From positions 1 through 57,259 of IMG/VR virus record IMGVR_UViG_3300022074_000044: a stretch of DNA of 57,259 nucleotides; one strand, 5' to 3'. Within the stretch, counting starts at the first letter, position 1, and every line of letters begins with the position of its first letter. This document shows, one piece after another, positions 1-16,707 of this stretch. Below the pieces are notes generated by a model. It was not told where the DNA came from. It made no database searches and was given only the letters and a program-made list of their open reading frames with translations. This stretch comes from a virus. The position numbers were made by a program, and so were the translations under genes.

Positions 1-363
1 TCCCAATACTGAACAAGTATCAGAATGATAAATTGATGTATTTGTAAAAACTCTACGATGAAAAACTTTTTCCGAATCTACTAGATCTATATCTTTCTTA
101 AATGAATTATTGGCAGTCTTCTTTGCAAATTCTATTGCTGGTTCAAATTTATCTAATAAACTTATATGATCACAAACATTCATAGCATACATTCCATACC
201 CTATAAACCCAGGCCCACTACACCATTCTAATATATGATGGACTCTACCATATTGTTCGATAACTAAGTTTAAATATTCTGTAAAGAAATAATCTCCACC
301 ACCATTTGTTTGTGGCGTATAGAAAATATCACACCCCTTAACTCTAAAAATATATTCTATCAC
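1..363 (-). CDS. SAM-dependent methyltransferase, partial (C-terminus beyond left edge)
   Basis: An open frame enters from a GTG codon at 363-361 and stays open to the window edge, giving 121 residues without the C-terminus. Residues 46-57 (EWCSGPGFIGYG) look like the glycine-rich motif I of a class I Rossmann methyltransferase, and the acidic residue at about 71 (LLDKFEPAIEFA) sits where the ribose-binding Asp/Glu is expected. The target is unknown. GTG overlaps the stop of the 70-residue gene as GTGA, a typical coupled junction, which is why this start is preferred. As the latest visible gene of the tailoring operon, it may methylate the same product as the sugar, carbamoyl and halogenase enzymes, but this is inferred only from position. 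A PrmC-like methyltransferase cannot be excluded. Confidence 0.7.
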   Translation of the reverse strand, partial: MIEYIFRVKGCDIFYTPQTNGGGDYFFTEYLNLVIEQYGRVHHILEWCSGPGFIGYGMYAMNVCDHISLLDKFEPAIEFAKKTANNSFKKDIDLVDSEKVFHRRVFTNTSIYHSDTCSVLG

Positions 364-572
364 TCTTCATCATCTTCAACTTCTACCATTTCTAAATCGT
401 GGATCATATCGTGAAATACTTCATGTTCACCAATTCGATAGAGGTGCTTCATCTCACCAGTGTTATCTTCTGATTCTCCTAAGTATGCGATATCTTCACA
501 TGTGTGTTCTCTTAGCCACGCCTGTAGCCTGAAGTGCATCAGATCTGCTTTGCTGGCGGTTAACTTGTCCAT
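360..572 (-). CDS. Small acidic hypothetical protein (70 aa)
   Basis: This 70-residue protein is soluble and acidic, ending in a run of Asp and Glu; I recognise no domain. The start is supported by a strong Shine-Dalgarno sequence (GGAGGAGGAC directly before ATG). It lies between the sugar kinase and the partial methyltransferase, overlapping the kinase reading frame by 77 bases and the methyltransferase start by 4. The strong ribosome site argues that it is translated despite the long overlap. Its function is unknown. Confidence 0.65.
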   Translation of the reverse strand: MDKLTASKADLMHFRLQAWLREHTCEDIAYLGESEDNTGEMKHLYRIGEHEVFHDMIHDLEMVEVEDDEE

Positions 573-1341
573 GTCCTCCTCCGAATAATGATTCTATGTC
601 ATCCTGATTTAGATAATAAGCGCCAGGATGTGTTACTGAAATTGCAGCAGCTCTATTTGCTAAATCAATAGACTTCTGCATGTTGGATGTTTTTAGAAAC
701 TCGTAAACTAAAGCGGCTAGAAATGTATCTCCAGCACCACAAACATCAAATACTTTGACTACCTGAGGCTTAAAGGTAAATCCACTCCACTTAACACCAC
801 GAGATCCAAGAGTGACAATCAGATGAGTGTCGTTAGGTAGATGGTTTTTGTCCAAGAGATCATATTCTTTCTTGTTTATTTTCCAGAATACATTATCTTT
901 ATGAAAAAGTCTACGCTTCTTAGTGTCTACGAACACTGGTCTGTTAAAATTGTGACACAGATGCCATAAATCATCATCAGTTATGTATCCTTTGTCATAA
1001 TCTGAAATAACAATTGCATCAGGATTCATGTGCATCATCGCCATCTTCACTTCAGCATTTGCAATCCTACTCACTTCTGGAGTTTCATCCAAACGCATCA
1101 ACTGATAACCACTATTTGTGTCTATGAATCTTGTTTTAGTAATCTCTTCCCTTTGTGAAAGTAGAACAGTATTAATACCAAATGCCTTGAGATTTAATTC
1201 AGTGTTTGCAGCCATGCCTGGCCTTTCTTCTATCTTAGTATGATCCAAGACAGGAACAGGTTGTTCTGGGCTGAGTCTATTACACTCCCCAAAAACGTAC
1301 TTATCTGTACACTTATCCCCTATAACAATTACGTTAGCCAC
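496..1341 (-). CDS. PfkB-family sugar kinase, HldE (RfaE) N-terminal-domain type
   Basis: The 281 residues resemble the kinase half of HldE, which phosphorylates D-glycero-D-manno-heptose 7-phosphate at C1. Visible motifs are the N-terminal VIVIGD strand, RLSPEQPVPV (22-31), ERPG (39-42), LMRLDE (81-86), VTLGSRG (176-182) and the PfkB signature GAGD (202-205), whose Asp is the usual catalytic base. Compared with HldE, about 25 residues of the lid/sugar-contact segment between roughly 60 and 70 are missing, so the substrate may differ. The last ~26 residues come from DNA that also encodes the next gene and do not look like family sequence. Eight bases overlap with the upstream adenylyltransferase; together they are a split HldE in reversed order. 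The true substrate is inferred. Confidence 0.82.
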   Translation of the reverse strand: MANVIVIGDKCTDKYVFGECNRLSPEQPVPVLDHTKIEERPGMAANTELNLKAFGINTVLLSQREEITKTRFIDTNSGYQLMRLDETPEVSRIANAEVKMAMMHMNPDAIVISDYDKGYITDDDLWHLCHNFNRPVFVDTKKRRLFHKDNVFWKINKKEYDLLDKNHLPNDTHLIVTLGSRGVKWSGFTFKPQVVKVFDVCGAGDTFLAALVYEFLKTSNMQKSIDLANRAAAISVTHPGAYYLNQDDIESLFGGGHGQVNRQQSRSDALQATGVAKRTHM

Positions 1342-1729
1342 GAATCTTTTTAATGATATCGGTTGTTGAATGATTTAGGCGAGGTAAGAACCTCACTTCT
1401 TTTGCAGCATACATACCAACTATGTCTCCACCTTTCCAATCATCACCCAGTAATAGTATATCAGGTGAATACAATTCTATCAACCCCTCTAGTTGTTTTC
1501 TATCATTGAAATATAATACTTCATCAATATATTTTATCGCTTGTAACATCGAAATTCTGTCACAAAGATTATTGACGGGCTTAGACGGACCCTTATCTTG
1601 ACGTATCTTTTCATCAGTATCCGTGGCGACTATGAGTTTGTCTCCTAAAGACTTTCCAACTTTGAATAATTCTATGTGGCCTGGGTGTAGGATATCGAAA
1701 GTTCCGTTGCACCATACTACTTTACTCAT
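1334..1729 (-). CDS. Cytidylyltransferase-fold nucleotidyltransferase, HldE C-terminal-domain type
   Basis: The 131-residue protein is a complete small nucleotidyltransferase. NGTFDILHPGH (8-18) holds the HxGH nucleotide-binding motif, and the KPVN...DRISML stretch, a GDDWKGGDIVG segment and the C-terminal STTDIIKKI (121-129) match the adenylyltransferase half of HldE (RfaE2). That enzyme turns heptose 1-phosphate and ATP into ADP-heptose. CTP:glycerol-3-phosphate cytidylyltransferase (TagD) shares the fold, but the STT-IIKKI ending and the neighbouring HldE-like kinase favour ADP-sugar synthesis. It overlaps the halogenase by ATGA and the kinase by 8 bases, so translation is probably coupled. 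Confidence 0.85.
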   Translation of the reverse strand: MSKVVWCNGTFDILHPGHIELFKVGKSLGDKLIVATDTDEKIRQDKGPSKPVNNLCDRISMLQAIKYIDEVLYFNDRKQLEGLIELYSPDILLLGDDWKGGDIVGMYAAKEVRFLPRLNHSTTDIIKKIRG

Positions 1730-3210
1730 AATGTATCTACATGTAAAAGATATTCAGAATGAGGAACAGAGTTCTTCTGATTTTCTGGTAAAGTTTTGTT
1801 TATAAAGTTTTTAAGTCTTGGCAGACAACTCACATCTTTTTTCCAATATTGTTTTGGATTAATTTCACCAGTCATCAGTTGACATAACCAAACTTGCCAA
1901 TTAGTTCCATCAAAGAAAGAACCCACTTTACCAGTTTGAATAGTTTGTCTGTGTTGATCTTGAATTTCCTGTTCAAAGAAAATCTGTGAAGGAGTTTTTT
2001 TGTATTTAGATCTCACAAAATCCCAGAACTTACCTTTTCTCTGGCAGTATGAATAGTGCATACTTACATAATCAACAGCAGTTTCAAAACTAGCTTTCAT
2101 CTTAGTATGAAAGAAAGATGGATCTATCTTAGAATTATAACTACACCCATAAATGGATTCCTCAAGATACTCAACACCTCTTATCATCAGTGCAAGTCCT
2201 GTACTTTCTAATGGTTCAATGAATCCAGCACTTAATCCTATTGGAACTACATTACCTTTCCAAAAACTTTGACTATACTGTGGTTTCCAATCTAACAATC
2301 TCATGTCATCTGGTTTTATTCTTCCTTCCCAATGATCAGAGAATGCCTGTGCAACTTCATCTGGATCTACAACATCTTGATTGAAACAATATCCTGTACC
2401 AATTCTAGATCTAGTAGGAATCTTCCATATCCAACCATGTTCCTGTGCTGGGCAAGCAGTGTATGGGTGTTGTTCTCCATGATGTTTATATTCAACTCTA
2501 GCAGCAAGAGCTGCATTTATAAACAATCTATCACTACAATCAACATTTTTCTTTCCTATCAACATCTGTTTCCAACCAGTACAATCTATGAATAGATCAC
2601 CAGTAATTTTTGATCCATCATCTAATACCAATTCTTTTATATTAGATTCAGTTAAATCATCAGCATTTCCATCTCTAATAACATCTACAACATCGGATTG
2701 AATATATTCTTTCAAGTGTGGTATAGTATTCATTTGTAAAAATTGTACTAATTTACCACAGTCAATTTGAAAGGCATATGAGTCATGTATATAATCTGTT
2801 TCTATTCTATTTTTCATAGAAGAAACGTACATTGGAGATATTTTTTTTATATCATACTCATCTTGATATGATGACCAGAGATCATACAAAGGTACTTTAG
2901 TATCCCCTACACTTGTAAATGAAAATGGATGCCATATTGTCTTATCTTCCTTACCCCAGCCTGGAAATAAAATACCAGATTTAAATGTTGCATCTATTTC
3001 TTTCATCCAATCGTTAGGTTTGTATCCCATTTGTCTCATGACATTTGGAAAACTTAAAAGAGTTGCTTCTCCTACACCTACTCTCTCTGGTTCTGATTTA
3101 TCAATTACAACTACATCCATCATCTTTCCCCATCTACGAGAAAACCAAGATGCAGTAATCCAACCAGCGGTTCCGCCACCAACAATAACTAGTCTTTTAA
3201 TTCTCTTCAT
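1726..3210 (-). CDS. prnA-like: Flavin-dependent tryptophan-halogenase family protein
   Basis: A full-length 494-residue member of the FADH2-dependent halogenase family, which uses flavin, oxygen and halide to chlorinate or brominate aromatic substrates. The FAD-binding GGGTAGW motif is at 11-17. The Lys corresponding to catalytic Lys79 of PrnA appears as K77 in FKSGI. The family's W-x-W-x-I-P signature is intact (260-265). FIEPLESTGLAL carries the expected active-site/FAD segment. A flavin reductase partner, which such enzymes need, is not encoded here and would come from the host or elsewhere. Overlaps by ATGA on both sides place it inside the tailoring operon. Substrate unknown: free tryptophan is typical, but peptide- or glycan-linked aromatics are possible. 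Confidence 0.9.
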   Translation of the reverse strand: MKRIKRLVIVGGGTAGWITASWFSRRWGKMMDVVVIDKSEPERVGVGEATLLSFPNVMRQMGYKPNDWMKEIDATFKSGILFPGWGKEDKTIWHPFSFTSVGDTKVPLYDLWSSYQDEYDIKKISPMYVSSMKNRIETDYIHDSYAFQIDCGKLVQFLQMNTIPHLKEYIQSDVVDVIRDGNADDLTESNIKELVLDDGSKITGDLFIDCTGWKQMLIGKKNVDCSDRLFINAALAARVEYKHHGEQHPYTACPAQEHGWIWKIPTRSRIGTGYCFNQDVVDPDEVAQAFSDHWEGRIKPDDMRLLDWKPQYSQSFWKGNVVPIGLSAGFIEPLESTGLALMIRGVEYLEESIYGCSYNSKIDPSFFHTKMKASFETAVDYVSMHYSYCQRKGKFWDFVRSKYKKTPSQIFFEQEIQDQHRQTIQTGKVGSFFDGTNWQVWLCQLMTGEINPKQYWKKDVSCLPRLKNFINKTLPENQKNSVPHSEYLLHVDTL

Positions 3211-3722
3211 CTTTGAAAAAATAAACTCAATGTAAATCTAAATTTTGGTGCCCTAACAGATTGTGGTCTTATCGCATGAGGTATAGATCCATCAAATAAA
3301 ATAATCCTGCCTGGCACATATAAAGATGTATGTGAAATTTCTTTTACATTATTCGGATTATAGAATATAGTTTCACCATGCCATCCATCTCTCCAATCTA
3401 GATTAACATAATATAGAGCAACTTGCAGATCATGATGTATGTGCATGTAATGTACATCATCAGGTCTAATTAAATTACAAACAACTGATTGAAGATTTTT
3501 ATTTACGAACCAATCAGTCTCATTTATACACTTAGTAATATGGGGAAATACATTAGTTGATACCAATTCCTTAGCAGTCCACTCACTGTAAATATTAAGA
3601 TCATATTTTTCTGGCACATCAGTATCTTCCCAACCTAATTTGAAAGTTGAGTTGACACAAAATTCCCACAAAACATCTCTTATATCGAATGGAACTTTAT
3701 CATCAAAAACACTCAAATTCAT
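3207..3722 (-). CDS. 2-oxoglutarate/Fe(II)-dependent oxygenase
   Basis: This 171-residue protein has the double-stranded beta-helix signature of Fe(II)/2-oxoglutarate oxygenases of the prolyl-hydroxylase type. HIHHD holds the H-x-D iron ligands (H96, D98), the distal His is H149 in SIPHAIRP, and the Arg that would bind 2-oxoglutarate is R162 in FRFTLSLFF. YVPGRIILFDG is the usual strand before the distal His. It presumably hydroxylates an unknown target. It overlaps the neighbouring oxygenase and halogenase genes by ATGA. Such oxygenases are frequent in marine T4-like phages; the pairing with a halogenase is the unusual part. Confidence 0.85.
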   Translation of the reverse strand: MNLSVFDDKVPFDIRDVLWEFCVNSTFKLGWEDTDVPEKYDLNIYSEWTAKELVSTNVFPHITKCINETDWFVNKNLQSVVCNLIRPDDVHYMHIHHDLQVALYYVNLDWRDGWHGETIFYNPNNVKEISHTSLYVPGRIILFDGSIPHAIRPQSVRAPKFRFTLSLFFQR

Positions 3723-4186
3723 ATTAGATTACCTGACAATACACATCTACCTTTATGATTACTAGGAGGTACACAATGTGGGAAATCACTATCCCATATC
3801 ACACAAATTCCTTGATTTGCATAGAAGAAAGTTGGTTCAATTGTTTCTGGATCTTCGCTAAAATGTAATGATGAACTACCCTCTGGAACCTGTATGTAGT
3901 AGGCAAATGAATATCTAAAATCTCCTTTATGTGTGTGCCATTTGATACCACCACCATCACGATACCAAACTCCCCATATACTTTCTAACTTAGTATCTGT
4001 TGTTTCTTCTATCCAGTTTATAAATTTTTGAACTGCTTGTGAACTTTCGACTCCTGTTGCTATGTGGCAATTATCTGATCTTTCTATGTAACTCTCTGTT
4101 ATAGTTGGTTGTGAATTAAGAATGGCCACCTTCAATTCACTGTTATCTTCTTGATATGGATATTCGTATTCTTTTATTTCTCTCAT
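3719..4186 (-). CDS. 2-oxoglutarate/Fe(II)-dependent oxygenase, phage PF13759-like
   Basis: A 155-residue protein resembling the short phage 2OG-Fe(II) oxygenases (PF13759 type). KWHTHKGD (residues 82-89) supplies proximal metal-ligand candidates H84/H86, followed by the typical FAYYIQVPEGSSSLHF strand pair, distal His H137 in WDSDFPHCVPP, and R147 shortly after as the co-substrate Arg. The usual Asp of an HxD motif is not obvious, so the exact ligand set is uncertain. Start ATG overlaps the carbamoyltransferase stop as TGATG. Substrate unknown; the context suggests work on the same product as its neighbours. Confidence 0.78.
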   Translation of the reverse strand: MREIKEYEYPYQEDNSELKVAILNSQPTITESYIERSDNCHIATGVESSQAVQKFINWIEETTDTKLESIWGVWYRDGGGIKWHTHKGDFRYSFAYYIQVPEGSSSLHFSEDPETIEPTFFYANQGICVIWDSDFPHCVPPSNHKGRCVLSGNLI

Positions 4187-5988
4187 CAGTTCTTTATTTC
4201 GATCATAAGACCGTACTCAGGTAGATAGAGGTATTCTATCAAACTATTTGCAAGAGTCCTTAGAGCGTCGTCTAGGGTCTCTACAAGAGGTTCTCCACCT
4301 AAGTTGAAAGATGTATTGAAAATTATAGGACATCCTGTCTTATCGTACCAAGCCTTAATTAAATTATAGTAATGAGGATTGACATCTTCTGTAACTGTTT
4401 GGATTCTACATGTATCATCAACGTGAATGATTGCTGGAATCTTTTCTTTGATTCCTTCCTGACATTTAACAGCATACATCATAAATGGTGTATCATCCAT
4501 ACCACGAAGATCAAACCATTCATGTACATATTCTTTCAATATTGATCCAGCAAACGGTCTGAAATATTCACGACGTTTGATAGTATTGACATGATCTTTT
4601 CCTTTTGGATCTCTAGGATCATACATGATAGATCTATTACCTAATGCACGAGGACCTGATTCTGATTTACCTTGGAACATTGCAACAATATTCTTTTTAG
4701 AAATCAGATCAATTGCATCTTCATGTGTAGCCTCGAAGATTCTAGTTGCATCGTAATAATTTGCAAGATCTGTAATATACTCAGGATCATATTCATGAAC
4801 AGGTCCGTAATATAGATCTTTCATGGGTGGGTGAACTTTCATATTCTTACTTACTTTCTGATAGTGCCAGTATGCAGCACCTATAGCTGTTCCAGCATCA
4901 TTACTTACTGGTTCTACAAATAAATTGATACCCTTTTCTTTCAGTTGAGGAAGATACCAATAGTTTGCAACACAGTTTAATCCATATCCACCAGAAAGAA
5001 CTACATTCTTTTCACCGCTTATCTCAACTGCTTTGAAGATAAGATCTAACACCATAGACTGTGATTCTGTTTGGATTGCATATGCCATATCTCTACGATT
5101 ATCTAACTGAGTTATATCTTTTACTGTACTTGGATCTTGAGGTTCTCTTAGTTCTAAGAATCTACCTTTGTTTACAACTGCACCATTAGGATAGGTAGGT
5201 ACAATAAGATCTCTATTAGTAGTGGCCCAATCACTTCTACCATCATAGTTTGTATAGATGTCTGGTATCTCACTATTCTCTTTTCCATATGGGAATAGTC
5301 CCATAGTCTTACCAGCTTCAATAGGAGCCCAACCACAGTATTGAGTAACTGCCTCATATGCTTTTACGATACCAGCAGAGTCATCTAATATTAATTCATG
5401 TGTTCCTTCTTCTCCTTCTCTGTCAGAAGTAAATTTATCAATTCTTACTGCACCCCAAGGACCTCTACCTCCTTGATGTTTATATAATGTCTTAAACTTA
5501 TCTGGATATTCACACTGGATGATAGTTTCCAACTCCCATGTCATTTCCTGTTCTCTATCAATCTCCATAGGGATAAATGTCCCTGCACCATCTACGATAA
5601 CAGATACAGCACTCTCAAATCCTGATCTAAAGAAAGCACAAGATGAATGGAGTTTATGGTGAATATGACTATAATCTACTACTTGTGGATGTTTGTAAAT
5701 ATCTGCTTTACGATCAATCAAACCTAGTTTTCTTGCAAGGGCAATGTAAATAGGTTCACCTGTAAAATCATTTGATCCAGCTTGATCGAGTGGCTGTGTA
5801 TGTGCAACCACAAGATAATCAAGTCTATCAGTATAGTCTAATATCTTGATCATGGATGCCAAAGGACCTCCATCATATTTTTTCCTAGATAACCTTTCTT
5901 CTTCAATCGAAAAGACCATCTCTCCATCTTTCAGTAAACAAACACCAGAGTTATGTCCTCTGGCAATTGCTGCAATCCACTGTGTCAT
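4186..5988 (-). CDS. O-carbamoyltransferase, NodU/CmcH/TobZ family
   Basis: This 600-residue protein is full length for the two-domain carbamoyltransferases that transfer a carbamoyl group from carbamoyl phosphate, via carbamoyl-adenylate, to a hydroxyl of a sugar or antibiotic. The N-terminal TsaD-like part shows HNSGVCLL, IEEERLSRKK, a His cluster HHKLH (110-114) for metal/substrate binding and VDGAG. Later come LSGGYGLNC and the C-terminal YrdC-like signatures SGPRALGNRSI (about 445-455) and FNTSFNLGGEPLVET. It starts one base past the stop of the GT9 gene, so it is in the same operon. In Pseudomonas a member of this family carbamoylates LPS heptose, which fits the ADP-heptose-type genes nearby, but that link is inference. 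Confidence 0.92.
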   Translation of the reverse strand: MTQWIAAIARGHNSGVCLLKDGEMVFSIEEERLSRKKYDGGPLASMIKILDYTDRLDYLVVAHTQPLDQAGSNDFTGEPIYIALARKLGLIDRKADIYKHPQVVDYSHIHHKLHSSCAFFRSGFESAVSVIVDGAGTFIPMEIDREQEMTWELETIIQCEYPDKFKTLYKHQGGRGPWGAVRIDKFTSDREGEEGTHELILDDSAGIVKAYEAVTQYCGWAPIEAGKTMGLFPYGKENSEIPDIYTNYDGRSDWATTNRDLIVPTYPNGAVVNKGRFLELREPQDPSTVKDITQLDNRRDMAYAIQTESQSMVLDLIFKAVEISGEKNVVLSGGYGLNCVANYWYLPQLKEKGINLFVEPVSNDAGTAIGAAYWHYQKVSKNMKVHPPMKDLYYGPVHEYDPEYITDLANYYDATRIFEATHEDAIDLISKKNIVAMFQGKSESGPRALGNRSIMYDPRDPKGKDHVNTIKRREYFRPFAGSILKEYVHEWFDLRGMDDTPFMMYAVKCQEGIKEKIPAIIHVDDTCRIQTVTEDVNPHYYNLIKAWYDKTGCPIIFNTSFNLGGEPLVETLDDALRTLANSLIEYLYLPEYGLMIEIKN

Positions 5989-5989
5989 A

Positions 5990-7240
5990 TTAAATAGATT
6001 TTTTTTCTATAGTAATTGCGTCTTCTTTATCTGACTTTAAGAGATTTTTAATTTCAGATTGAAAACCTTTTTTATTTTTTGGTTTTTTCTTAGTTTCCAT
6101 AGTGAAACTAGGTTTAGGAGCTCCTGTGAAAGAAGGAGCATTTGATGTTGGAGACCAAGTAGGAGTTGGGGGTCCTTGTCTAGGAACATCAGTTGTTGGA
6201 GCTGGTGATGCAATTCCCTGTCCTAGTGCTGGTTGTTGTTGAGGCGAACAAGATTGTCCCTGATCTTGTTGTGGAGGAACGAAAGTACCAGTATATGTTT
6301 TTGGTTTACCTAATCTCTTTCTACAAGATGCAACAATCTCATCAACTTGTTTCTTACTCAACTCCATCGCTTCATCATTAAAACGATCAACTCTTTCATC
6401 CATAGTGATTCTGATTGGAGCATATTCTCTACGACCATCACCGACATCAATAATATCAAATTCCTTATGGCCAGGATAACTGATATTTTCTGGATATGTG
6501 GAACCAACCACGACAGTTGCAGTTTTATCAAATGCTCTCGCAATATGTTGACCCACACTATCACATCCTAAGAAATGATCTGCAACATCAATAACAGCAG
6601 CCCATACTCTCATATCACTTATCTGTGGTCTAGCGATAGGATACTTATCTTCATTCTCCTCAGTTGCAAAGTGATGTTCACTCATAATGATTACTGCATA
6701 ATCTTTTTTGAGTTGATTGACAATATCAATAGCACCTATAAGAGACATGCTTCTTGAAGTTGGGTCTGCAATAAACTCTCCTATTTGTTGAACTGATCTC
6801 CCAAATGGTTGAATGACAATTACTTTATCTTTCTTAGTTGTTGCTTTAATTTCTTCTACGACATTATAACCAGTAATGATCTCCATCTTATTGAGTTCTA
6901 CTCTTGGTTTAGGTAGTTCTCTAGGTTCATCTAATCCGTTGATTGCGATATCATATGCCTGTGCGATACTACATTTCTGATTGTAATAATCCCATACTCT
7001 ATATGGTTCTGGAGTCTCGCAGTCTCTCTGTATTATATGTTCTTGAAAAAGATTTTTATGCCAGTGATCATATACTTTACCATCTAGTGTTGGGTGTCCC
7101 TTGAAGAAGTCTGTACCACCCTCACATACAATAATAAAGTCATCATGGTTCTCTGCATATTTTTCAAATGCAGGGATTGAACTTATTACTCTGCCTGCAC
7201 CACCATTAACAAAAAACGCTTTCGATCTCATAGTTTTCAT
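5990..7240 (-). CDS. Glycosyltransferase family 9-like (ADP-heptose:acceptor type) with a Pro/Gln-rich tail
   Basis: A 416-residue protein whose first ~310 residues look like a GT-B glycosyltransferase of family 9 (heptosyltransferases). The N-terminal NGGAGRVI loop, the IVIQPFGRS strand and the C-terminal nucleotide-sugar motif CDSVGQHIARAF (226-237) are visible. The remainder is atypical: residues ~315-380 are rich in Pro, Gln, Ser and Thr, and 383-416 are rich in Lys. The ATG is preceded by AGGAATT. With an HldE-like kinase and adenylyltransferase in the operon, ADP-heptose or a relative is the likely donor. Autotransporter protein heptosyltransferases also belong to this broader group, so a protein acceptor is possible. 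Confidence 0.72.
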   Translation of the reverse strand: MKTMRSKAFFVNGGAGRVISSIPAFEKYAENHDDFIIVCEGGTDFFKGHPTLDGKVYDHWHKNLFQEHIIQRDCETPEPYRVWDYYNQKCSIAQAYDIAINGLDEPRELPKPRVELNKMEIITGYNVVEEIKATTKKDKVIVIQPFGRSVQQIGEFIADPTSRSMSLIGAIDIVNQLKKDYAVIIMSEHHFATEENEDKYPIARPQISDMRVWAAVIDVADHFLGCDSVGQHIARAFDKTATVVVGSTYPENISYPGHKEFDIIDVGDGRREYAPIRITMDERVDRFNDEAMELSKKQVDEIVASCRKRLGKPKTYTGTFVPPQQDQGQSCSPQQQPALGQGIASPAPTTDVPRQGPPTPTWSPTSNAPSFTGAPKPSFTMETKKKPKNKKGFQSEIKNLLKSDKEDAITIEKKSI

Positions 7241-7258
7241 AATTCCTGTACTATATAG

Positions 7259-7921
7259 TCACATAAAAAATACCTGTGCCAGTCTGGGATATTCCTTAAA
7301 CATTGACCTGTTTAGGATAGCTCCATGAGTATGACGGCCTTCATATAATACCATTCTATTATATTTCATCTCACTTGTCCACTTTATGTCTTTTTTGATG
7401 TTGTAACCATTACCGTAGGGGTGATCTTCTATAAATTTATAGAAATCTGTGCCTCCATTACACTCATCTGGTTTGTTCAAATATACTAATGCAGCCCACT
7501 TAGTTTCCATATCATCTTTGTGGTGAGTATAACAAAATATATCTTTATTAAACTTTTCATTTATATCCTCATGTGTCGTATGGTTGACCATGAATTTCAT
7601 ATTGTCCCACCTATATTGGAACATTCCTTCAGAATATTCTATATTTTGCCACTCTTCATGTTGGCAGAGTTTGGTGAATACTGGTCGAAGATTGTCAATC
7701 ATCTCTTGATTTTCTTCTACCACTCTTGACCCTACAAGTCCACCACAATATTCTTTATCTGTTTTCAAATCACATGATAGAGCATAGTCTCTTATCTCAT
7801 CAGGATTTTTATAGAAGTCATCAATTACGAATACTTTTCGCCAACAATAACCAGCATCATTCCATCTAGAATGATCATAAACCCTGTATACCAAAGGATC
7901 TATAGAATTTATTTCAAACAT
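7259..7921 (-). CDS. DUF6445-like 2-oxoglutarate/Fe(II) oxygenase
   Basis: This 220-residue protein matches the pattern of DUF6445 phage/bacterial oxygenases. YTHHKD (131-136) gives the H-x-D ligands, followed by WAALVYLN and GGTDFYKF, the segment NRMVLYEGRHTHG with distal His (197 or 199), and R213 in PRLAQVFF. It is the first gene of the tailoring operon, 18 bases before the glycosyltransferase and just after an intrinsic terminator, so its transcription must start in the short gap after 7988 or read through the terminator. Substrate unknown. It is not closely similar to the other two oxygenases by eye, so these are probably three distinct activities. Confidence 0.75.
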   Translation of the reverse strand: MFEINSIDPLVYRVYDHSRWNDAGYCWRKVFVIDDFYKNPDEIRDYALSCDLKTDKEYCGGLVGSRVVEENQEMIDNLRPVFTKLCQHEEWQNIEYSEGMFQYRWDNMKFMVNHTTHEDINEKFNKDIFCYTHHKDDMETKWAALVYLNKPDECNGGTDFYKFIEDHPYGNGYNIKKDIKWTSEMKYNRMVLYEGRHTHGAILNRSMFKEYPRLAQVFFM

Positions 7922-7934
7922 AACCCCAGATAAT

Positions 7935-7960
7935 AAAAAAGATCCCCATAAGAGGATCTT
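7935..7960 (-). terminator. Intrinsic terminator after the chaperone-like gene
   Basis: Read on the minus strand, AAGATCCTC and GGGGATCTT pair with a TTAT loop and are followed by six T. It lies 28 bases past the stop of the 7988-8773 gene and before the tailoring operon, separating structural from tailoring genes. Confidence 0.85.
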
Positions 7961-7987
7961 GAATTAACTTATATATAAAAGTTTACT

Positions 7988-8773
7988 TTACGCTGCGTTA
8001 GGTGGCATCCATGATTCTGCCTCTGTTGCATCTGCGTCTGGCTGTTTTGGTGGATCAGTGAAGTTAGGTTCAGCTGGGAACATTAAGTCAGCAAAGTTAG
8101 GGTGAACTCCAGCAGCTTGCATTTTGCTTGGAAGATCTCTTAACTGTTGACGATATGTTTTCCACTGATCTTTAAGTGAATCAGGCATATCTTCTGCAAT
8201 CTGACCATCACTATTAGAAAGAACATTGTTTCTATGAGCTCTAACGTGATCCCATGTTTTGTCTAGGTCAACACCATTTAACTTTTCTTTTGGTGTGAAT
8301 TCTTTTATAGAAATGTCATCAGGGCCTGCACTGCCTGGATTTGCAACTGTGATACTCTCGTAGTTGTAAATGTCATCTGGGAAGAGTGTTGAAGAATATG
8401 AGAATCTGTCATATCCATCAGAAGTTAGATCTGGAGATCCAGCATGGAATACATCACTTCCAGCACCTCTGTCTTCTTCCTTCTCGTTAACAACTGGGCC
8501 TCTGAGTTGACAGATGAGTGTGTGAAGATTTGATCTAGCACAGTCTACTTCGTACCACTGTACAACGTCTAGTGGCTTGGGACGACCATCTGCAATGTCA
8601 TCTTCTGTGAGAGGACCATAAAGTTCTTTTCCATCTGCACCAATTTGTAGATAGATTTTGTCTGGACCATCATAAGTTTGGTCTCTATACTTTCCATCAC
8701 TAAATGAGTGATCTGTTAGAAAGTCATTAGGTAATGACAGTTGCCATCCCTGTTCGATAATTTTAGTTGCCAT
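7988..8773 (-). CDS. Tail-fibre/tail assembly chaperone-like protein
   Basis: This 261-residue protein carries at about 173-216 the pattern of the phage tail assembly chaperone domain (PF16778 type): W-x3-R-x2-RN-x2-L, then SD, a DMPDSL stretch, W-x2-YRQQLRDLP. The N-terminal 160 residues are not recognised; the C-terminus is Pro/Asp-rich. It has its own late promoter (TATAAATA at 8807-8814) and terminator, directly after the cysteine-rich adhesin-like triplet. This mirrors the adhesin-plus-chaperone pairing seen at the end of tail fibre loci, so it probably helps fold or attach those proteins. It could alternatively be a virion component. Confidence 0.6.
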   Translation of the reverse strand: MATKIIEQGWQLSLPNDFLTDHSFSDGKYRDQTYDGPDKIYLQIGADGKELYGPLTEDDIADGRPKPLDVVQWYEVDCARSNLHTLICQLRGPVVNEKEEDRGAGSDVFHAGSPDLTSDGYDRFSYSSTLFPDDIYNYESITVANPGSAGPDDISIKEFTPKEKLNGVDLDKTWDHVRAHRNNVLSNSDGQIAEDMPDSLKDQWKTYRQQLRDLPSKMQAAGVHPNFADLMFPAEPNFTDPPKQPDADATEAESWMPPNAA

Positions 8774-8806
8774 TTTGGATTTCTTCGGGTTTTCTCCTTC
8801 GATTAT

Positions 8807-8814
8807 TATTTATA
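8807..8814 (-). promoter_or_regulatory. T4 late-type promoter motif TATAAATA
   Basis: A perfect T4 late -10 box on the minus strand, 33 bases before the ATG at 8773. It begins a few bases after the T-run of the terminator at 8819-8839, so it restarts transcription for a single gene. Confidence 0.7.
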
Positions 8815-8839
8815 AAAAAAGAGGGTCTATGACCCCCTT
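8814..8839 (-). terminator. Intrinsic terminator after the cysteine-rich gene cluster
   Basis: On the minus strand AAGGGGGTC and GACCCTCTT form a nine-pair stem (one G-T) with an ATA loop, followed by a run of T. It lies 22 bases beyond the stop of the last cysteine-rich gene and abuts the late promoter at 8807. Confidence 0.85.
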
Positions 8840-8861
8840 TTCAGATATTTTCTTGTTCGGT

Positions 8862-9650
8862 TTAGACGTATGTGATCTTAACAAGTCCAGATCCACCTTG
8901 TCCGCCTTGTCCACAACATCTACCACAGTAGTTACTGTTAGCACCTTGTCCACCGTGTCCGTATGGAACTGTCCAACAACCACAACGCATCCAACACTCT
9001 CTTTGTCCGTAGGAAACACCAAGAGTTCCGATGAATGGAGCACCTGTTGGTAATCCTTCGTTATAGAAGCAGTGACAGTTAAATCCGTCAGGTCTGTATG
9101 ACTCACCACCGTGGTTGCCCATTCCGAAGTCTCCTCCGTGAGCGCCAGGTTGCATACAACAAGTCTCGAATTCTGAGTAACAGTTTGCAGACCAGTCACC
9201 AGTTGCACAACCTCTAGGACCACCTAAGGCACAGAAGTTAGAGAGGTTGTATCCGTTTACATAGGAGTTACATCCGCAACACCCTGTACACTCTCTAGAA
9301 CAACAACGGTAAACACCAGCAGCACATACAGTGTATGAACATCCGCCAGTCGTTGAAATAGTTTTTGTATTATAATATCCACCACCAGCACCGTGCCAGT
9401 TTTGACATCTGTTACATGAACATGCACCGTGACCATTTCCTCCAGCACCCCATATTTCCCAAGTAATTCTTGTTACTCCAGTGGGAACTTGCCAGTTGCA
9501 ACAACAGCCAGGTGTGCAGTAACATGGATGACCATATACCCATTTTACGCACCAGTTAGAGAAAGATCCACTCTGAACCGCAGACGAAGGTATCGTCGTG
9601 TCAGTGATCTGAGTGTTTTCTATTCTTTTGTAACTCGAATAATTTGCCAT
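8862..9650 (-). CDS. Cysteine/glycine-rich adhesin-like protein, copy 3
   Basis: A 262-residue protein with about 30 cysteines. A ~30-residue variable N-terminus leads into a body resembling the glycine-rich tail-fibre domain (a VPTGV strand, WGAGGNG turn, GGQGGSGLVKITYV end). Fixed cysteine blocks are CTPGCCCNW, ACSCNRC, YRCCSREC-GC-GC, CHC, ECWMRCGCW and YCGRCCGQGG. No signal peptide or membrane segment is present. The start is supported by GGGAAG eight bases upstream of ATG, nine bases after the previous gene's stop. It is probably a virion tip/adhesin protein; metal binding or disulfide locking are alternatives for the cysteines. Last gene before the terminator at 8814-8839. Confidence 0.7.
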   Translation of the reverse strand: MANYSSYKRIENTQITDTTIPSSAVQSGSFSNWCVKWVYGHPCYCTPGCCCNWQVPTGVTRITWEIWGAGGNGHGACSCNRCQNWHGAGGGYYNTKTISTTGGCSYTVCAAGVYRCCSRECTGCCGCNSYVNGYNLSNFCALGGPRGCATGDWSANCYSEFETCCMQPGAHGGDFGMGNHGGESYRPDGFNCHCFYNEGLPTGAPFIGTLGVSYGQRECWMRCGCWTVPYGHGGQGANSNYCGRCCGQGGQGGSGLVKITYV

Positions 9651-9658
9651 TGCTTCCC

Positions 9659-10453
9659 TTAGAAGTAAGTAATTTTAACTAGACCACCGCCACCAGTACC
9701 ACCTTGTCCACAACATCTACCACAATATGTAGTCATTGCGTTCTGTCCGCCGTGTCCATAAGGAACAATCCAGCAACCACAACGTACCCAACATTCTCTG
9801 ATAGACTGAGTGACTTGTGTACCAATCAAAGGTGCAGAGCCAGGTCTGTGACCATAGTGGTAACAGTGACACCAACCTCTGTAAGTATCATGTCTAGATG
9901 CGTTCCACACACCAGCATGATCTCCCATTCCAAAGTCTCCGTTGTTTGAGTTTGGACCTAAACAACAAGTATTAACTGATTGACAAGAGTTTGACCAACT
10001 TGGGTTGGCGTTTGCTCTACATCCACCGATAGCACAGAAGTTTGATAGGTTATATCCGTTCACATAAGATGAACAACCTGTGCAACCATAACATTCTCTA
10101 GAAAGACATCTATAAACACCAGCAGCACAAATACTGTATCCACAACCACCATTGGTTGTAATCATCTTGGAGTTATAGTATCCTCCACCAGAACTTGAGT
10201 AGTGTTGACATCTGTTACATGAACATGCACCAGTACCGTTTCCACCAGCACCCCAAGCCTGAATCCACATGTTCTGAACCCCTGTTGGGACTGACCAGTT
10301 ACAACAGCAACCAGCAGAACAACGACACATAATACCGAAAACCCATTTAACACCGTAGGTACAGTTCGGTGATTGACTGAAACTCGATGCCGATAAGACA
10401 TTCGATTCTAGTTGATCTCCGTGAACTTTTTTATATGATGAATAATTAGCCAT
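9659..10453 (-). CDS. Cysteine/glycine-rich adhesin-like protein, copy 2
   Basis: The 264-residue middle paralogue has about 28 cysteines. It keeps GCCCNW, ACSCNRC, YRC-SREC-GC-GC, SYVNGYNLSNFC, CHC, ECWVRCGCW and YCGRCCGQGG but has lost or moved some: YRCL replaces YRCC, and IMCRCSAG replaces HPCYCTPG. The segment ~175-215 is rich in His, Tyr and Arg and differs from both sisters. The end GGGGLVKITYF is as in glycine-rich tail-fibre domains. Fourteen bases separate it from copy 1 and eight from copy 3, so it is co-transcribed. Its role is probably receptor contact at the tail periphery; this is inferred from the domain type and neighbours. Confidence 0.7.
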   Translation of the reverse strand: MANYSSYKKVHGDQLESNVLSASSFSQSPNCTYGVKWVFGIMCRCSAGCCCNWSVPTGVQNMWIQAWGAGGNGTGACSCNRCQHYSSSGGGYYNSKMITTNGGCGYSICAAGVYRCLSRECYGCTGCSSYVNGYNLSNFCAIGGCRANANPSWSNSCQSVNTCCLGPNSNNGDFGMGDHAGVWNASRHDTYRGWCHCYHYGHRPGSAPLIGTQVTQSIRECWVRCGCWIVPYGHGGQNAMTTYCGRCCGQGGTGGGGLVKITYF

Positions 10454-10467
10454 TTTTTTTTAAATAC

Positions 10468-11253
10468 CTAGACGTAAGTGATTCTTACAACACCAGAGCC
10501 GCCTTGACCGCCCTGACCGCAACAACGACCACAATATGTAGTCATCGCACCTTGACCACCTGTTGCATAAGGAGCAGTCCAACAACCACATCTCATCCAA
10601 CACTGTTCCAAGAGGTTTTCAACACCATTCGTTGACAAGAACGGAGCACCTGATGACATTGTGTTTGCAACCGCACCAGTACAGTGACAGTTCCAGTGAC
10701 CTGACCAACCTTTTTGGTGAGGAGCCATTGCAAAGTCTCCACCCCATGTTCCAGGCGATGCACAACACCAGTTAGTTGAACTACATCTAATAGACCAGTC
10801 AGGGTTTGCACAACCTCTTGCACCACCGTGAGCACAGAAGTTACTTAAGTTGTAACCATTAACATATGAATTACATCCATTACATCCGTTACACTCTCTA
10901 GAACAACAACGGTAAACACCACCAGCGCATACAGTATATGAACAACCAGCAGTCGTACTGATTGTTTTAGTATTATATGCACCACCAGAAGCACCTCTGT
11001 AGTGATGGCATCTGTTACATGAACATGCACCATGTCCGTTACCCCCAGCACCCCAGACTTCGAGAGTTAATTTCTCAACTCCAGAAGGGACTTGCCAGTT
11101 GCAACAGCATCCAGGCGTACAGTAACATGGATGACCGTAGAACATCTTGACACAATAGCGAGGTGTCACCCCAGCTTCTAGCTTGTCGGGGTGAATATCA
11201 CCTGACGCTATTTGGTCAGATCTTACTTTTCGATATGATCTATAATTGGCCAT
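10468..11253 (-). CDS. Cysteine/glycine-rich adhesin-like protein, copy 1
   Basis: The 261-residue first paralogue of the triplet has about 29 cysteines. It shares HPCYCTPGCCCNWQVP, WGAGGNGHGACSCNRC, VYRCCSREC, SYVNGYNLSNFC, CHC, QCWMRCGCW and YCGRCCGQGG with copy 3. The N-terminal ~30 residues are polar and probably join it to the fibre or to another subunit. It follows the 1484-residue fibre gene by 54 bases. That gap holds no late-promoter box that I can see, so it is probably read from 16696 through the fibre genes. The cysteine density is far above other phage fibres I know, and disulfide or metal cross-linking is inferred. Confidence 0.7.
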   Translation of the reverse strand: MANYRSYRKVRSDQIASGDIHPDKLEAGVTPRYCVKMFYGHPCYCTPGCCCNWQVPSGVEKLTLEVWGAGGNGHGACSCNRCHHYRGASGGAYNTKTISTTAGCSYTVCAGGVYRCCSRECNGCNGCNSYVNGYNLSNFCAHGGARGCANPDWSIRCSSTNWCCASPGTWGGDFAMAPHQKGWSGHWNCHCTGAVANTMSSGAPFLSTNGVENLLEQCWMRCGCWTAPYATGGQGAMTTYCGRCCGQGGQGGSGVVRITYV

Positions 11254-11307
11254 TTATGATCCTAAAATTTGCGTTGTAAAAAATATCATAATATAGAGGA
11301 TCTCAAA

Positions 11308-14300
11308 TTAGATGGAGAAGATTCTCCAACCGTATGTTGAACCAGAGTATACAAGACTAAACGCAGCACCCTCTGTGTTAACAGTTAGGTTAGCAGTGTC
11401 ACCTTGGATTGGTCTACCATTCCTTGAAACGACTAGTGCGTTAGAGTCAAATGTCTTAGCAACGTCATAGAATGTAATTGTTGCACCTGTGTTAGGAGAT
11501 GCAGGGAGTGTTGCAGTTACCTGTCCACCACCAGTGTTAACGAAGTAGTGTTCTCCAGCATTAGGACTGAAGTTAGATGAAACTGTACTGTATGAAGTAA
11601 CACCAGGCTGAATCCACTGAGTTCCATCATAGTACTCAAGAGCACCGAGGTCTGTGTTGAATCTTAAACAACCAGTGTTGAATTCATCGTCAATGCCGCC
11701 AGGTCTTTGAGCGGTTGTACCTACAGGAGGTGTCATCGCCTTAGTACCCATTGAACCACGAGTTACGAATCCCTTAACAGCAAATTCAGTAGGACACGCA
11801 CCGTTGGAGTTACCAGCAAGTGCAGGGTCAGAGGAGAATTCAGAGATCGCCTCACCGACCTGACCTCCAAGAGAACCAAGTCTCAATTCTGTCAAACCAG
11901 ATAGGTTGAACGCAGAAGCATCCAATGTCGCACGACCAGTCAACTGGTCAACGGAGAAGAAGTCTCCAACTCTGAAGTTACCACCTTGGTCGGTTGATAC
12001 GAAGAACACCTTACCAGGCCCGAATACGTTAGTCTCGTTACCTTGAATAACGTTTGCCAAATTAACATTTGGATAACCAGTTTCTGTTTTGTTACCAGTA
12101 CCAACTGCGAGGAAGTCATGTCCTGTTAGTCTTGCCTGTGAGAACAGTGTTCTGATTGTAATTGTAGATCCATAAGAAACGTTGTCCGCATCTATGTTTC
12201 TAGTATCCCATGTACCAGTTGCTTTCTCTGGTGAGATCGATAACGTAGCACGATTATAGAATATCGTTGCGATACCAGCCGTCGATCCAGCCTGCCATTC
12301 ATAGTAGGTCTTAGCAACAGCGACGTTCGTTATAGTGTTAATAATGAAGAATCTATCAGTTGCACCATAGAGTGTGGTTGAGAATCCGATAGCATCACCG
12401 ACCAGTAGGGTTCCAGAAGTCTGGTCAATTTCCATAATTGTTCCTTTCTGTCCTGTGACTGAACTTGCGGCCGCTCCGACTGCAATCGAACCAATACCAG
12501 AACTCTGTTCTGCACCAGCACCGAACCAGATGGTCTCACCATCTACGAAACCAGTGGTTCCGATTCCAGCATTACCGTATCCAGACTGATACTTGAAGTA
12601 AATCTTATCAGCAGCGATTTGGTCATTCAAGAACCATGCAGTTGCCTTGGATGTAGTACCGAACATTGTAGCACCGATTGCAAGTGTTCCGCCCTTAGTT
12701 ACACCTTGAACTGTCATCATGTCACCGAAGAGTTTTGCTTCTCTTGGTACTTCATCAGTTGAGAAACCAGATGAGATAACACCGTAGTCTCCATAAGAGT
12801 TGTTTCCACCAACACCCCTGATTCTTGATCCACCACCTGAGTAGTAACCCCACTTAGCGTAGTATGTGAAACAGGAAACGATTTCAGCGATTGCACCCTT
12901 ATCAAGAATGTAACCAGCACCATCAGATGCAACGTGCGTAAACGCATCGAACACCATTGATTTCGCACCGACATCGTGTACTCCACCATCGATGAATACA
13001 CCGACACCACCACCACCGAATCTTGCAGGGATTGCCTCTGTAGCAGGGTCTGAGAAACAAGTACAATCCTTAACGTAAGGTGACTTGTTATTAATTGGTG
13101 AGTCTGGGTTCAATGAGATGAATACACCAGCAGCAGTTGTACCAATACCAGTTCTTAGGTTTGTATTGTCAAGAACTAGAGGAGCGTTAGGATCATAGTA
13201 GAATCCTTCCATTCCTTTCATGGAGATCGCCTGAATTGTTGTTGCATCAGACATCTTGAACATATGACTCCTGTTATTAGGAGTTGTTGAATCATCAGAT
13301 GTTCCAATTTTAGGTAGAACCTGTGAACCTCTAAGTGCGTTACCAACGATAGAAGTGAAAGGAGGAACTGTAACTGGTAACTGTTCGTAGAACTGAGACG
13401 CAGATAGTTTCAAGATAGCAGGTGTTAGGTCTGTAACTGTACCGCCTTCAACGTATGTGTGGTTGATAGATGAGATACCAACGTTAACCTTGAATGTCTG
13501 TGTATCAGGAACTTCAAGAACCTCATAGTAAGACTTAGATACCTTATCGGGATACTTGGTTGTTGTTAAACCAACGAACGCAGTACCACCAGAAACATAG
13601 AGGTAATCAGTAGTTGAAACACCTACGTTTAGAGTGATTGAGTTAGAGTCGGGTACACCTTGAACAACGAACTCATAAGTACCTTGAGTATGTACAGCAG
13701 GGAACTTACCAGTGATTGTTTGGTCATCAGATGCAGTACCAACGTTAATTGTAATTGTGTTGGTTGTAGTTGATGTAATATTAAGAGCAGTGTTATATGC
13801 AGGGTCTGGGTTTCCGTCTCCAGCAACAGCACGAGGATATGGGTGATCAGTTGTATAACCGTCCATTGAACAACGGAATGTCATACCTTCTGTTTCTAGT
13901 CTTACAGATGTACCAACTGTTAGTGAGTGAGCACCGATTGTGCAAACCATGTCACCAGTGTTCTCGTTATAAGAAACAGCAGTTGGTTCATGGTTAACGA
14001 TTGGAGAAGATCCAACGTTTATAGTGAATGTATCAGTTGTTGTACCTGTAATTGCTAATTGTTGTCCTACAGCAGGGTCTTTTCCAGCACGAGGATAAGT
14101 CTTCTGTGTGGCGTTGTTGTTCATTGTACATGTGAACGTAAACGCATCGTTGGAAATAGTAACTTTATCAGAAGTTGATAGACTATGACCAGCAAGGGTC
14201 ATTACGAAGTTACCATTTGAAGGATCGTATGTCGCACTTGTTGGAGTTATACCTGATCCACCAACAACTTGAACACCGTTTGTTGCACAACTGTTGAATG

Positions 14301-15762: not shown

Positions 15763-15796
15763 TTTTTCTCCGTGTAATTATCTGAGGGGGATTTTT

Positions 15797-16201
15797 TTAC
15801 TTAGGTCCGATGCTGTTGTAAGCATAGTCGGGACCGTTGAATCTTATGACGAAAAAGCCATCATCATCTATGTAATAGTATAAGTTTCTGCGGTCAAAGC
15901 GAATCTGTTGGTATTTATCATTCGGATCATCTACAAGTTTTTTAACAGTTGCGATATCATTACGGATAACAGATGTTTTACCAACACCAACATCATATGT
16001 ACCATAATCTAAACCATCACCGAATTCTGGTATAGCAGTTCCATCGTTACGATAGAATTCTCCCATTTCTGTTGAAGCAGCACTAACTTTTGAAAATAAT
16101 AGCATGTCGTCTGCATCTCTTCTGAGTGCATACACGAAAAAACCCGACGATTCGGAGGGGTCAAAATTTCCAGAAATTGAGTTACTTAGCGTAAGTGCCA
16201 T
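15797..16201 (-). CDS. Putative structural protein (134 aa)
   Basis: A soluble 134-residue protein with no recognised domain: an N-terminal TLSNSISGNFDP segment, a stretch mentioning YRNDG and YDVGVGKTSV, and an aromatic ending RRNLYYYIDDDGFFVIRF. It starts two bases after the stop of the Mtd_N-type gene and 34 bases before the large fibre, so it is co-transcribed with them. It is probably a small virion or fibre-associated subunit, inferred from position only. Confidence 0.6.
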   Translation of the reverse strand: MALTLSNSISGNFDPSESSGFFVYALRRDADDMLLFSKVSAASTEMGEFYRNDGTAIPEFGDGLDYGTYDVGVGKTSVIRNDIATVKKLVDDPNDKYQQIRFDRRNLYYYIDDDGFFVIRFNGPDYAYNSIGPK

Positions 16202-16203
16202 TG

Positions 16204-16662
16204 TTAACTTGCCCTATTGTTGAATACTTTCCAAAGAGTTCCATTCCAAATAAAGGTCACTGACGCACCCGACACGTCCATGATGAAAGGTGAAGATTCT
16301 CTAACTAAGTGTCCATTTTCAAAACTGTAAACAGATGTCACACTAACAGGGTTGATACTGAAGAAATTCGCAAAGTCTTCGATCCATACCCAGTCACCAA
16401 CCGCACGAGGAGTTGGCATAGTTAGACTGTAACCACCAGATGTATTTTGGGAGTCTACTGTATACTTTTGGTTTGTACCAAGAGAATACGCTCCAGACAC
16501 GAAAGTCCATCTTGCTTTCGCAAGTTCAAATCCGCCAGGAGTTGATCCGTCGTGAACAACCGCCGTATTCTTGTCTGTATCTACCGTTATCTCTGCTAGA
16601 GCTCCAGTAAAGTTAAAGTGTTCAGCTGTCGTTCCTTTTCTGAATTGAACCTGCTTTGTCAT
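16204..16662 (-). CDS. Mtd N-terminal-domain-type fibre protein
   Basis: The first ~50 residues (VQFRKGTTAEH...EITVDTDKNTAVVHDG) match the pattern of the major tropism determinant N-terminal domain that anchors trimeric receptor-binding proteins. The remaining ~100 residues are beta-rich, end in TFIWNGTLWKVFNN, and do not show the C-type lectin fold of classical Mtd. The protein is 152 residues. A perfect TATAAATA box sits 34 bases before ATG. It heads the unit that continues through the 134-residue protein, the large fibre and the cysteine-rich triplet. Likely role: trimeric adhesin or fibre-base subunit. Confidence 0.7.
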   Translation of the reverse strand: MTKQVQFRKGTTAEHFNFTGALAEITVDTDKNTAVVHDGSTPGGFELAKARWTFVSGAYSLGTNQKYTVDSQNTSGGYSLTMPTPRAVGDWVWIEDFANFFSINPVSVTSVYSFENGHLVRESSPFIMDVSGASVTFIWNGTLWKVFNNRAS

Positions 16663-16695
16663 GAGCTAGATGTCAAATAGTTATGCTTCTCCATT

Positions 16696-16703
16696 TATTT
16701 ATA
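16696..16703 (-). promoter_or_regulatory. T4 late-type promoter motif TATAAATA
   Basis: Perfect late box on the minus strand between the stop of the 1546-residue gene (16708) and the ATG at 16662. It probably drives the fibre/cysteine-rich unit down to the terminator at 8814-8839. Confidence 0.7.
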
Positions 16704-16707
16704 GGAA

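Follow-up and report, generated by a model that had tools for sequence, protein, structure and literature searches.

We analyzed a run of genes in IMG/VR virus record IMGVR_UViG_3300022074_000044, of which the whole stretch of 57,259 nt was examined (hereafter, the window). The window is a fragment of a T4-like cyanophage whose nearest relative is S-SSM7; over positions 1-12000 it is 81.5% identical to S-SSM7 and S-SSM6a, both phages of Synechococcus WH8109. A tightly coupled run lies on the minus strand from position 7240 to 496. It begins with GC302 (5990..7240, 416 amino acids (aa); phrog_8954, 1e-163), which has a predicted fold like that of GT9 heptosyltransferases, and GC303 (4186..5988, 600 aa), a two-domain O-carbamoyltransferase of the NodU/TobZ type. 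Two genes for 2-oxoglutarate/Fe(II) (2OG-Fe(II)) oxygenase-like proteins follow. The first (3719..4186; PF13759 1.4e-5, just under the cut-off; phrog_81 1e-14) is accessory and absent from some related cassettes, and the second (3207..3722) matches the FlmC-family 2OG-Fe profile (1.3e-12) and PF13640 (0.0012). Next come an accessory gene of the flavin-dependent (tryptophan) halogenase family (1726..3210; PF04820 1e-82, with a WIWKIP motif in the translation), GC304 (1334..1729, 131 aa), a nucleotidyltransferase of the HldE C-domain type, and GC305 (496..1341, 281 aa, GTG start), a kinase of the HldE N-domain type. The genes overlap or touch at 1341/1334, 1729/1726, 3210/3207, 3722/3719, 4186/4186, and 5988/5990. 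An original prediction, made from the DNA letters alone, had described one coupled operon holding an HldE-type kinase, an HldE-type adenylyltransferase, a GT9-like enzyme, and a NodU-type carbamoyltransferase. All four frames are intact on this strand and abut or overlap their neighbors, and the run also holds three genes that the prediction had not listed, the halogenase-family protein and the two oxygenases. The phage genes of the cassette to which this run belongs very probably serve to make an activated sugar of seven carbons, transfer it to an acceptor, and carbamoylate it.

The cassette continues past position 496. Base 1 of the window lies inside the next gene, the start of a small methyltransferase (1..363, minus strand; phrog_35227 5e-55), so the contig end truncates the cassette. 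Locus L024 is 99.95% identical to the window over positions 1-17240 (17.2 kb) and is thus another contig from this phage. Downstream it carries the small methyltransferase, the HAD phosphatase GC306 (L024 17570-17905, 111 aa), the cupin GC307 (L024 17883-18284, 133 aa), and a 2OG oxygenase; open reading frames for GC308, an HldD homologue (L024 18859-19668), and another 2OG protein follow on the opposite strand, and then the gp13 neck gene. The order of the core genes is shared by S-SSM7, P-SSM2, S-CAM1, S-CAM3, Sf-FS3, and many IMG/VR contigs, and because of this recurrence the run is not a chance assembly. When 36 viral loci, each having at least 9.5 kb after GC302, were compared, 26 had all seven genes from GC302 to GC308 and the other 10 had GC302 and GC303 only. 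The family of each protein and the linkage of the genes were read from sequence or structure.

The kinase and the nucleotidyltransferase both resemble HldE. GC305 matched HldE domain I (TIGR02198) at 5.5e-40 and 137 bits, compared with 9e-14 and 51 bits for ribokinase; its Pfam match is PfkB (4e-16). It is 30% identical to E. coli HldE across 247 columns and retains the RLSPEQPVPV, INKKE, and GAGDTF motifs, and its top PDB match is the HldA structure 4e84. GC304 matched HldE domain II (TIGR02199) at 3.5e-29 and 101.5 bits, compared with 1.3e-21 and 77 bits for TagD, and is 41% identical to the E. coli HldE C-domain over 132 columns, with the HPGH and STT motifs present. Both scores are under the curated equivalog cut-offs (345 bits for TIGR02198 and 181.5 bits for TIGR02199). 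Among nine aligned phage GC304 homologues, HPGH and R117 are invariant and all have an Arg near the STT motif. In viral heptose enzymes, an Arg five residues before STT was associated with promiscuity for CTP and UTP, the position being as read from a commentary on that work (PMC11461863). In the window and S-SSM7 proteins a gap of one residue puts the Arg four residues ahead of STT. The product may therefore extend beyond ADP-heptose alone, and the nucleotide carried by the heptose would be ADP and possibly also CDP or UDP.

Of all the genes, GC308 points most strongly to heptose. The S-SSM7 protein scored 212 bits for TIGR02197 versus 42 bits for GalE, and all of its top PDB matches are HldD; this score is under the equivalog cut-off of 274.6 bits, and the protein falls about 45 aa short of the model length. 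The L024 protein, encoded just past the window edge, shares 39% identity with E. coli HldD, and S116, Y140, K144, and K178 are aligned. C6 of heptose, the center inverted by HldD, is a stereocenter missing in hexoses. Because the C6 epimerization needs a heptose, the heptose reading gains strong support from this gene. The original prediction had proposed looking for gmhA, gmhB, and hldD in the rest of the genome, and for hldD that search succeeded, with the catalytic residues conserved.

The outcome for gmhB was mixed. The window phage showed no match to the canonical GmhB family. Instead, GC306 matches the EcbF/BcbF capsule HAD phosphatases, with the motifs DIDGT, T47, K90, and DD and the PDB relatives 9iqw and 1xpj, and is predicted to supply the phosphatase step. 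Canonical GmhB is found in sister phages. A GmhB-type phosphatase was present in 10/10 records of the loci with GC302 and GC303 only and in 0/11 of the complete-cassette records searched. The L097 protein matches the profile of D,D-heptose 1,7-bisphosphate 7-phosphatase at 140 bits and shares 36% identity with E. coli GmhB across 157 residues. Further along, the GmhB-variant contigs encode HldD, an HldE that is either fused or split, and a cupin with about 37% identity to GC307. Several contigs hold these genes as a single contiguous operon, in the orders HldE-cupin-GmhB-HldD (L242), HldE-HldD-cupin-GmhB (L256), and GmhB-cupin-nucleotidyltransferase-kinase-HldD (L106). We then counted distinct HldD loci that had not been selected by cupin (n = 57). 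All 28 of those found through GC302 had the cupin and the HAD protein and no GmhB, whereas all 29 of those found through GmhB had the cupin and GmhB and no HAD protein. This pattern suggests that GC306 and GmhB are mutually exclusive, interchangeable phosphatases, although the exchange corresponds to only 2-3 changes on the carbamoyltransferase tree and the counts therefore represent few independent swaps rather than dozens. GenBank records label GC306 as a phosphoheptose isomerase (for example, L003 19055-19390). We rejected this label, as the protein has no SIS domain and carries HAD motifs.

Alternatively, the kinase, nucleotidyltransferase, and epimerase may act on another sugar, their likeness to HldE and HldD reflecting distant homology. 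None of the cassette proteins reaches an NCBIfam equivalog cut-off, and GC304 also resembles TagD, as would be expected in that case. However, three independent families point to the same pathway, the HldD residues are conserved, and sister phages substitute canonical GmhB and a fused HldE for parts of the set. We therefore regard activity on a different sugar as improbable.

The remaining biosynthetic step is that of GmhA, and here the pathway departs from the canonical one. The SIS domain PF13580 (the GmhA fold) was found in none of 41 viral records (9 complete cyanophage genomes and 32 further records), while the controls were detected. Thus no relative tested has GmhA, the pathway is not canonical, and the gmhA of the original proposal did not appear. 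With kinase, phosphatase, nucleotidyltransferase, and epimerase all assigned, the isomerase step and the cupin alone are left over. GC307 is a small cupin with a PF07385 match below the cut-off. Its metal site, HxH-x4-E...H (H54, H56, E61, H102), is invariant in 36 sequences, and its AlphaFold model (predicted local distance difference test score, pLDDT, 92) has D-lyxose/D-mannose isomerases as its best PDB fold matches. The chemistry of those enzymes, which interconvert a ketose and a manno/lyxo aldose, would by analogy have the stereochemistry needed to convert sedoheptulose 7-phosphate to manno-heptose 7-phosphate. The cupin was present in 57/57 of the distinct HldD loci described above; counts from loci found with the cupin itself as query (116/116) are biased and were excluded from the evidence. 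A natural fusion of the cupin with an HldE C-domain-type nucleotidyltransferase (261 aa) is encoded in L244 (12123-12905, minus strand). We infer that GC307 is a putative non-orthologous sedoheptulose-7-phosphate isomerase, which suggests that these phages have swapped the usual first enzyme of the pathway for an unrelated kind of protein. No paper on a cupin phosphoheptose isomerase was found in the literature searched. GenBank labels describing GC307 as a cysteine dioxygenase or a nucleotidyltransferase were rejected in favor of a small isomerase-like cupin. Mislabels of GC306, GC307, and the 2OG-Fe families recur in the L003, P-SSM2, S-CAM1, S-CAM3, and S-SM2 homologues.

It is also conceivable that the phage makes heptose but that the isomerase step is performed by GmhA, which could come from the host, while the cupin acts otherwise, for example by reshaping the nucleoside diphosphate (NDP)-heptose or acting on the acceptor. 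Cupins have many activities and match one another widely (834 PDB chains match the GC307 model at E <= 0.001), so the fold alone proves little; in addition, contig L021, from a metagenome-assembled genome (MAG), carries this cupin together with a weak SIS/GmhA-like protein. On the other hand, the cupin occurs in every one of those 57 loci and near every HldE variant, L244 encodes it as a fusion with the nucleotidyltransferase, the phages themselves encode the other four steps, and the cupin keeps a 3His-1Glu metal site, from which RmlC-type epimerases differ. Taken together, these points make an isomerase supplied by the host an unlikely explanation. In L021 (8386-10563), the cupin and an HldE-like kinase/nucleotidyltransferase occur together with the SIS/GmhA-like protein, which lies next to a GHMP-kinase-like protein, perhaps representing two heptose routes in one cluster. 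A scan of genome contigs for the cupin yielded MAG contigs only, some of them clearly phage-like, and for this reason we make no claim of cellular homologues. Clusters of the S-SM2 type have transketolase-like genes close to the heptose kinase (L017 2974-4082, split; L009 6984-8192; L010 7844-8989), which could provide sedoheptulose 7-phosphate or be meant for another sugar.

GC302 had no Pfam match, and the family profile search returned heptosyltransferase III only, at 6e-4; a sequence search of the PDB with the GC302 profile gave nothing. Profile alignment with WaaC/F/Q covered only the C-terminal 80 columns (probability 44%), and fold comparison was therefore needed. In the AlphaFold2 model, residues 1-320 are ordered (pLDDT mostly >85) and a Pro/Gln-rich tail from about residue 320 is disordered. 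When residues 1-320 were compared with the whole PDB using Foldseek, the best 30 matches were all TibC, WaaC, WaaF, or GT9 proteins, including a Veillonella GT9, and the C-lobe motif D227-S-x-G-Q-H232 lines up with the D261...H266 region of WaaC. The GT9/heptosyltransferase-like assignment in the original prediction is thus borne out by the predicted fold, and the fold and neighborhood together argue for GC302 being a divergent member of this group. Membership in the BAHT family was rejected, because GC302 has no four-Cys iron finger (a single Cys, C90, is invariant) and no N-terminal beta-barrel.

In nearly all loci, GC303 directly neighbors GC302 or lies close to it. It matched PF16861 (8e-59) and PF02543 (8e-24), both above cut-off, and its profile matched the carbamoyltransferase structure 7xb6 (2e-70) and TobZ (2e-59); H110xxxH114 and D364 are invariant across the aligned homologues. 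O-carbamoylated heptose exists in Pseudomonas lipopolysaccharide (LPS), where it is made via WapO (PMC8005017). Because GC303 is so constantly paired with GC302, heptose is its predicted substrate. Other carbamoyltransferases belonging to these two Pfam families act on cytosine in phage DNA, a phage-type enzyme carbamoylating 5-hydroxymethylcytosine (PMC8670742), and one may ask whether GC303 and the rest of the run modify a nucleic acid (yielding, for example, 5-carbamoyloxymethylcytosine) or a small molecule. The carbamoyltransferase of S-RIM44 adjoins thymidylate synthase, and the halogenase in the run is of a natural-product type, both consistent with such a role. Yet the partner of GC303 in nearly all loci is GC302 and not a hydroxymethylase, and base modification has no use for the linked HldE/HldD set. 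We rejected DNA modification as the main function on these grounds and consider a nucleic acid or small-molecule target highly improbable.

Other modifying genes accompany this core. The halogenase and the several 2OG-Fe oxygenases look like a protein-modification operon. A second carbamoyltransferase having the N-terminal domain only (L003 13854-14963, L006 13267-14424) is found in S-SSM7 and Sf-FS3 and is missing at the corresponding place in the window phage, and two halogenase genes lie beside HldE in the GmhB-variant contig L104 (13936-16390). The family of the oxygenase at window 3207..3722 carries a denV/"DNA endonuclease V" label in GenBank phage records, which we rejected since the family is 2OG-Fe(II) oxygenase-like.

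Upstream, the cassette is flanked on the minus strand by a 2OG-Fe/DUF6445-type protein (7259..7921) and a tail fibre assembly chaperone (7988..8773; PF16778 7e-10), which places it in a tail-fibre module. Three tandem Gly-/Cys-rich paralogues (phrog_4205; 8862-9650, 9659-10453, and 10468-11253) lie beside it; they resemble adhesins and could be substrates of the modifying enzymes. The cassettes of S-SSM7, P-SSM2, S-CAM1, S-CAM3, and Sf-FS3 likewise form part of a region of tail-fibre and structural genes. Given this location in the tail-fibre/neck module, the most likely acceptor is a virion protein, either a tail fibre or an adhesin, and modified tail fibres, if real, would have a bearing on phage host choice. 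The main alternative is a host surface glycan: the cassette would then modify LPS or O-antigen of the host itself, perhaps as a barrier to superinfection. LPS is the substrate of WaaC and WaaF. In S-SM2, P-TIM68, S-T4, and Sf-CH8 the heptose genes lie in glycosyltransferase-rich clusters away from tail genes, and an earlier report interpreted heptose genes of cyanophages as LPS genes (PMC3037559). In those four phages, though, GC302 and GC303 are not beside the heptose genes; in annotated relatives whose cassette includes GC302 and GC303, it has tail-fibre genes on one side and later structural (neck) genes on the other, and the GmhB variant is also beside tail-fibre-like genes. Furthermore, the very best fold match of GC302, by a small margin over WaaC, is TibC, which glycosylates protein (PMC4358343). 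A host glycan as the acceptor is thus a serious possibility, albeit one that we do not favor over a virion protein. The most specific version of our proposal, in which a complete cyanophage NDP-heptose pathway with a new, GmhA-unrelated cupin phosphoheptose isomerase decorates the phage's own tail adhesins with carbamoylated heptose, is tentative and, taken as a whole, rather doubtful.

In summary, the run is likely to be most of a conserved cyanomyovirus cassette through which a nucleotide-activated manno-heptose would be made, transferred by GC302, and O-carbamoylated by GC303. Sedoheptulose 7-phosphate is an intermediate of the Calvin cycle and the pentose-phosphate pathway. During infection, GC307, in place of GmhA, would isomerize it to D,D-manno-heptose 7-phosphate (step 1); GC305 would phosphorylate O1 (step 2); GC306, or canonical GmhB in sister phages, would remove the 7-phosphate (step 3); GC304 would add the nucleotide (step 4); GC308 would invert C6 (step 5); and GC302 would transfer the heptose (step 6), which GC303 would then carbamoylate (step 7). 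All of these catalytic steps are predicted, above all steps 1, 3, and 7. A late-promoter scan of the window found four exact TATAAATA, equal to chance, and so we make no claim on timing. Several observations weigh against this scheme. The fold matches of GC302 have TM-scores of only 0.4-0.55, and in a manual motif alignment the position of the WaaC catalytic Asp13 is occupied by Arg17 in 36/36 GC302 homologues. It is hard to see what the window genes at 1726-4186 would do in a heptose pathway. The shortfall from equivalog cut-offs, the few phosphatase exchanges, the promiscuity of the cupin superfamily, the SIS/GmhA-like protein of L021, a possible host GmhA, and the cytosine-modifying relatives of GC303, all described above, count in the same direction. 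Of the coherent path to a carbamoyl-heptose glycan put forward originally, the core of activated heptose, GT9-like, and carbamoyltransferase-like enzymes stood and was extended by HldD, a phosphatase, and the GC302 fold, while the canonical GmhA route did not.

The original statement that this is not a described phage system was too strong. Sullivan et al. (2010) reported that T4-GC 304, 305, 307, and 308 co-occur in cyanophage "LPS" clusters and asked whether these are functional or stuffer DNA (PMC3037559), heptose genes were named in cyanophage SynMITS9220M01 (PMC7378029), and Tang et al. (2024) described active viral NDP-heptose enzymes, the phosphatase being stated, according to a commentary, to be absent in viruses (PMC11461863). 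As far as we searched, what is new is the complete pathway with its two interchangeable phosphatases and candidate cupin isomerase, the correction of two annotations, the full cassette of the window phage, and its constant association with a carbamoyltransferase and a protein of heptosyltransferase fold. Our analysis offers a concrete pathway for a gene set of many cyanomyoviruses that was left in 2010 as LPS genes or perhaps stuffer DNA, supplies candidate phosphatases for viral heptose pathways in which this enzyme was reported missing, predicts a new class of phosphoheptose isomerase, and corrects two wrong labels repeated across GenBank, making GC306 an HAD phosphatase and GC307 an isomerase-like cupin.

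Compared with the bacterial GmhA-HldE-GmhB-HldD pathway, the phage kinase, nucleotidyltransferase, and C6-epimerase are HldE and HldD homologues, and sister phages have canonical GmhB. The phage set differs in that the kinase and nucleotidyltransferase are split and the kinase is shortened, a cupin is present and GmhA is not, an EcbF/BcbF-type HAD protein replaces GmhB, and an Arg lies beside the STT motif of the nucleotidyltransferase. The cyanophage "LPS" clusters of P-SSM2, S-SM2, and S-SSM7 contain the same gene families as the window cassette, but the part of that report considered here assigns no pathway and includes neither the GmhB variant nor the link to GC302 and GC303 as heptosyl- and carbamoyltransferase (PMC3037559). 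Functional heptose synthesis by viral enzymes is reported in the commentary on Tang et al. (PMC11461863), whereas the loci described here have two phosphatase types and no GmhA. GC302 shares the GT-B fold and its best fold matches with the TibC/AAH autotransporter heptosyltransferases and with WaaC/WaaF (GT9). It differs from TibC, which has an N-terminal beta-barrel and a four-Cys iron finger (PMC4358343), in having neither, and from GT9 enzymes in having no Pfam-level sequence match and an Arg at the position of the WaaC catalytic Asp. Finally, GC303 shares both carbamoyltransferase domains with Pseudomonas WapO and the NodU/TobZ family, among which WapO provides a precedent for 7-O-carbamoyl-heptose, whereas its sequence is divergent and heptose as its substrate is proposed here.

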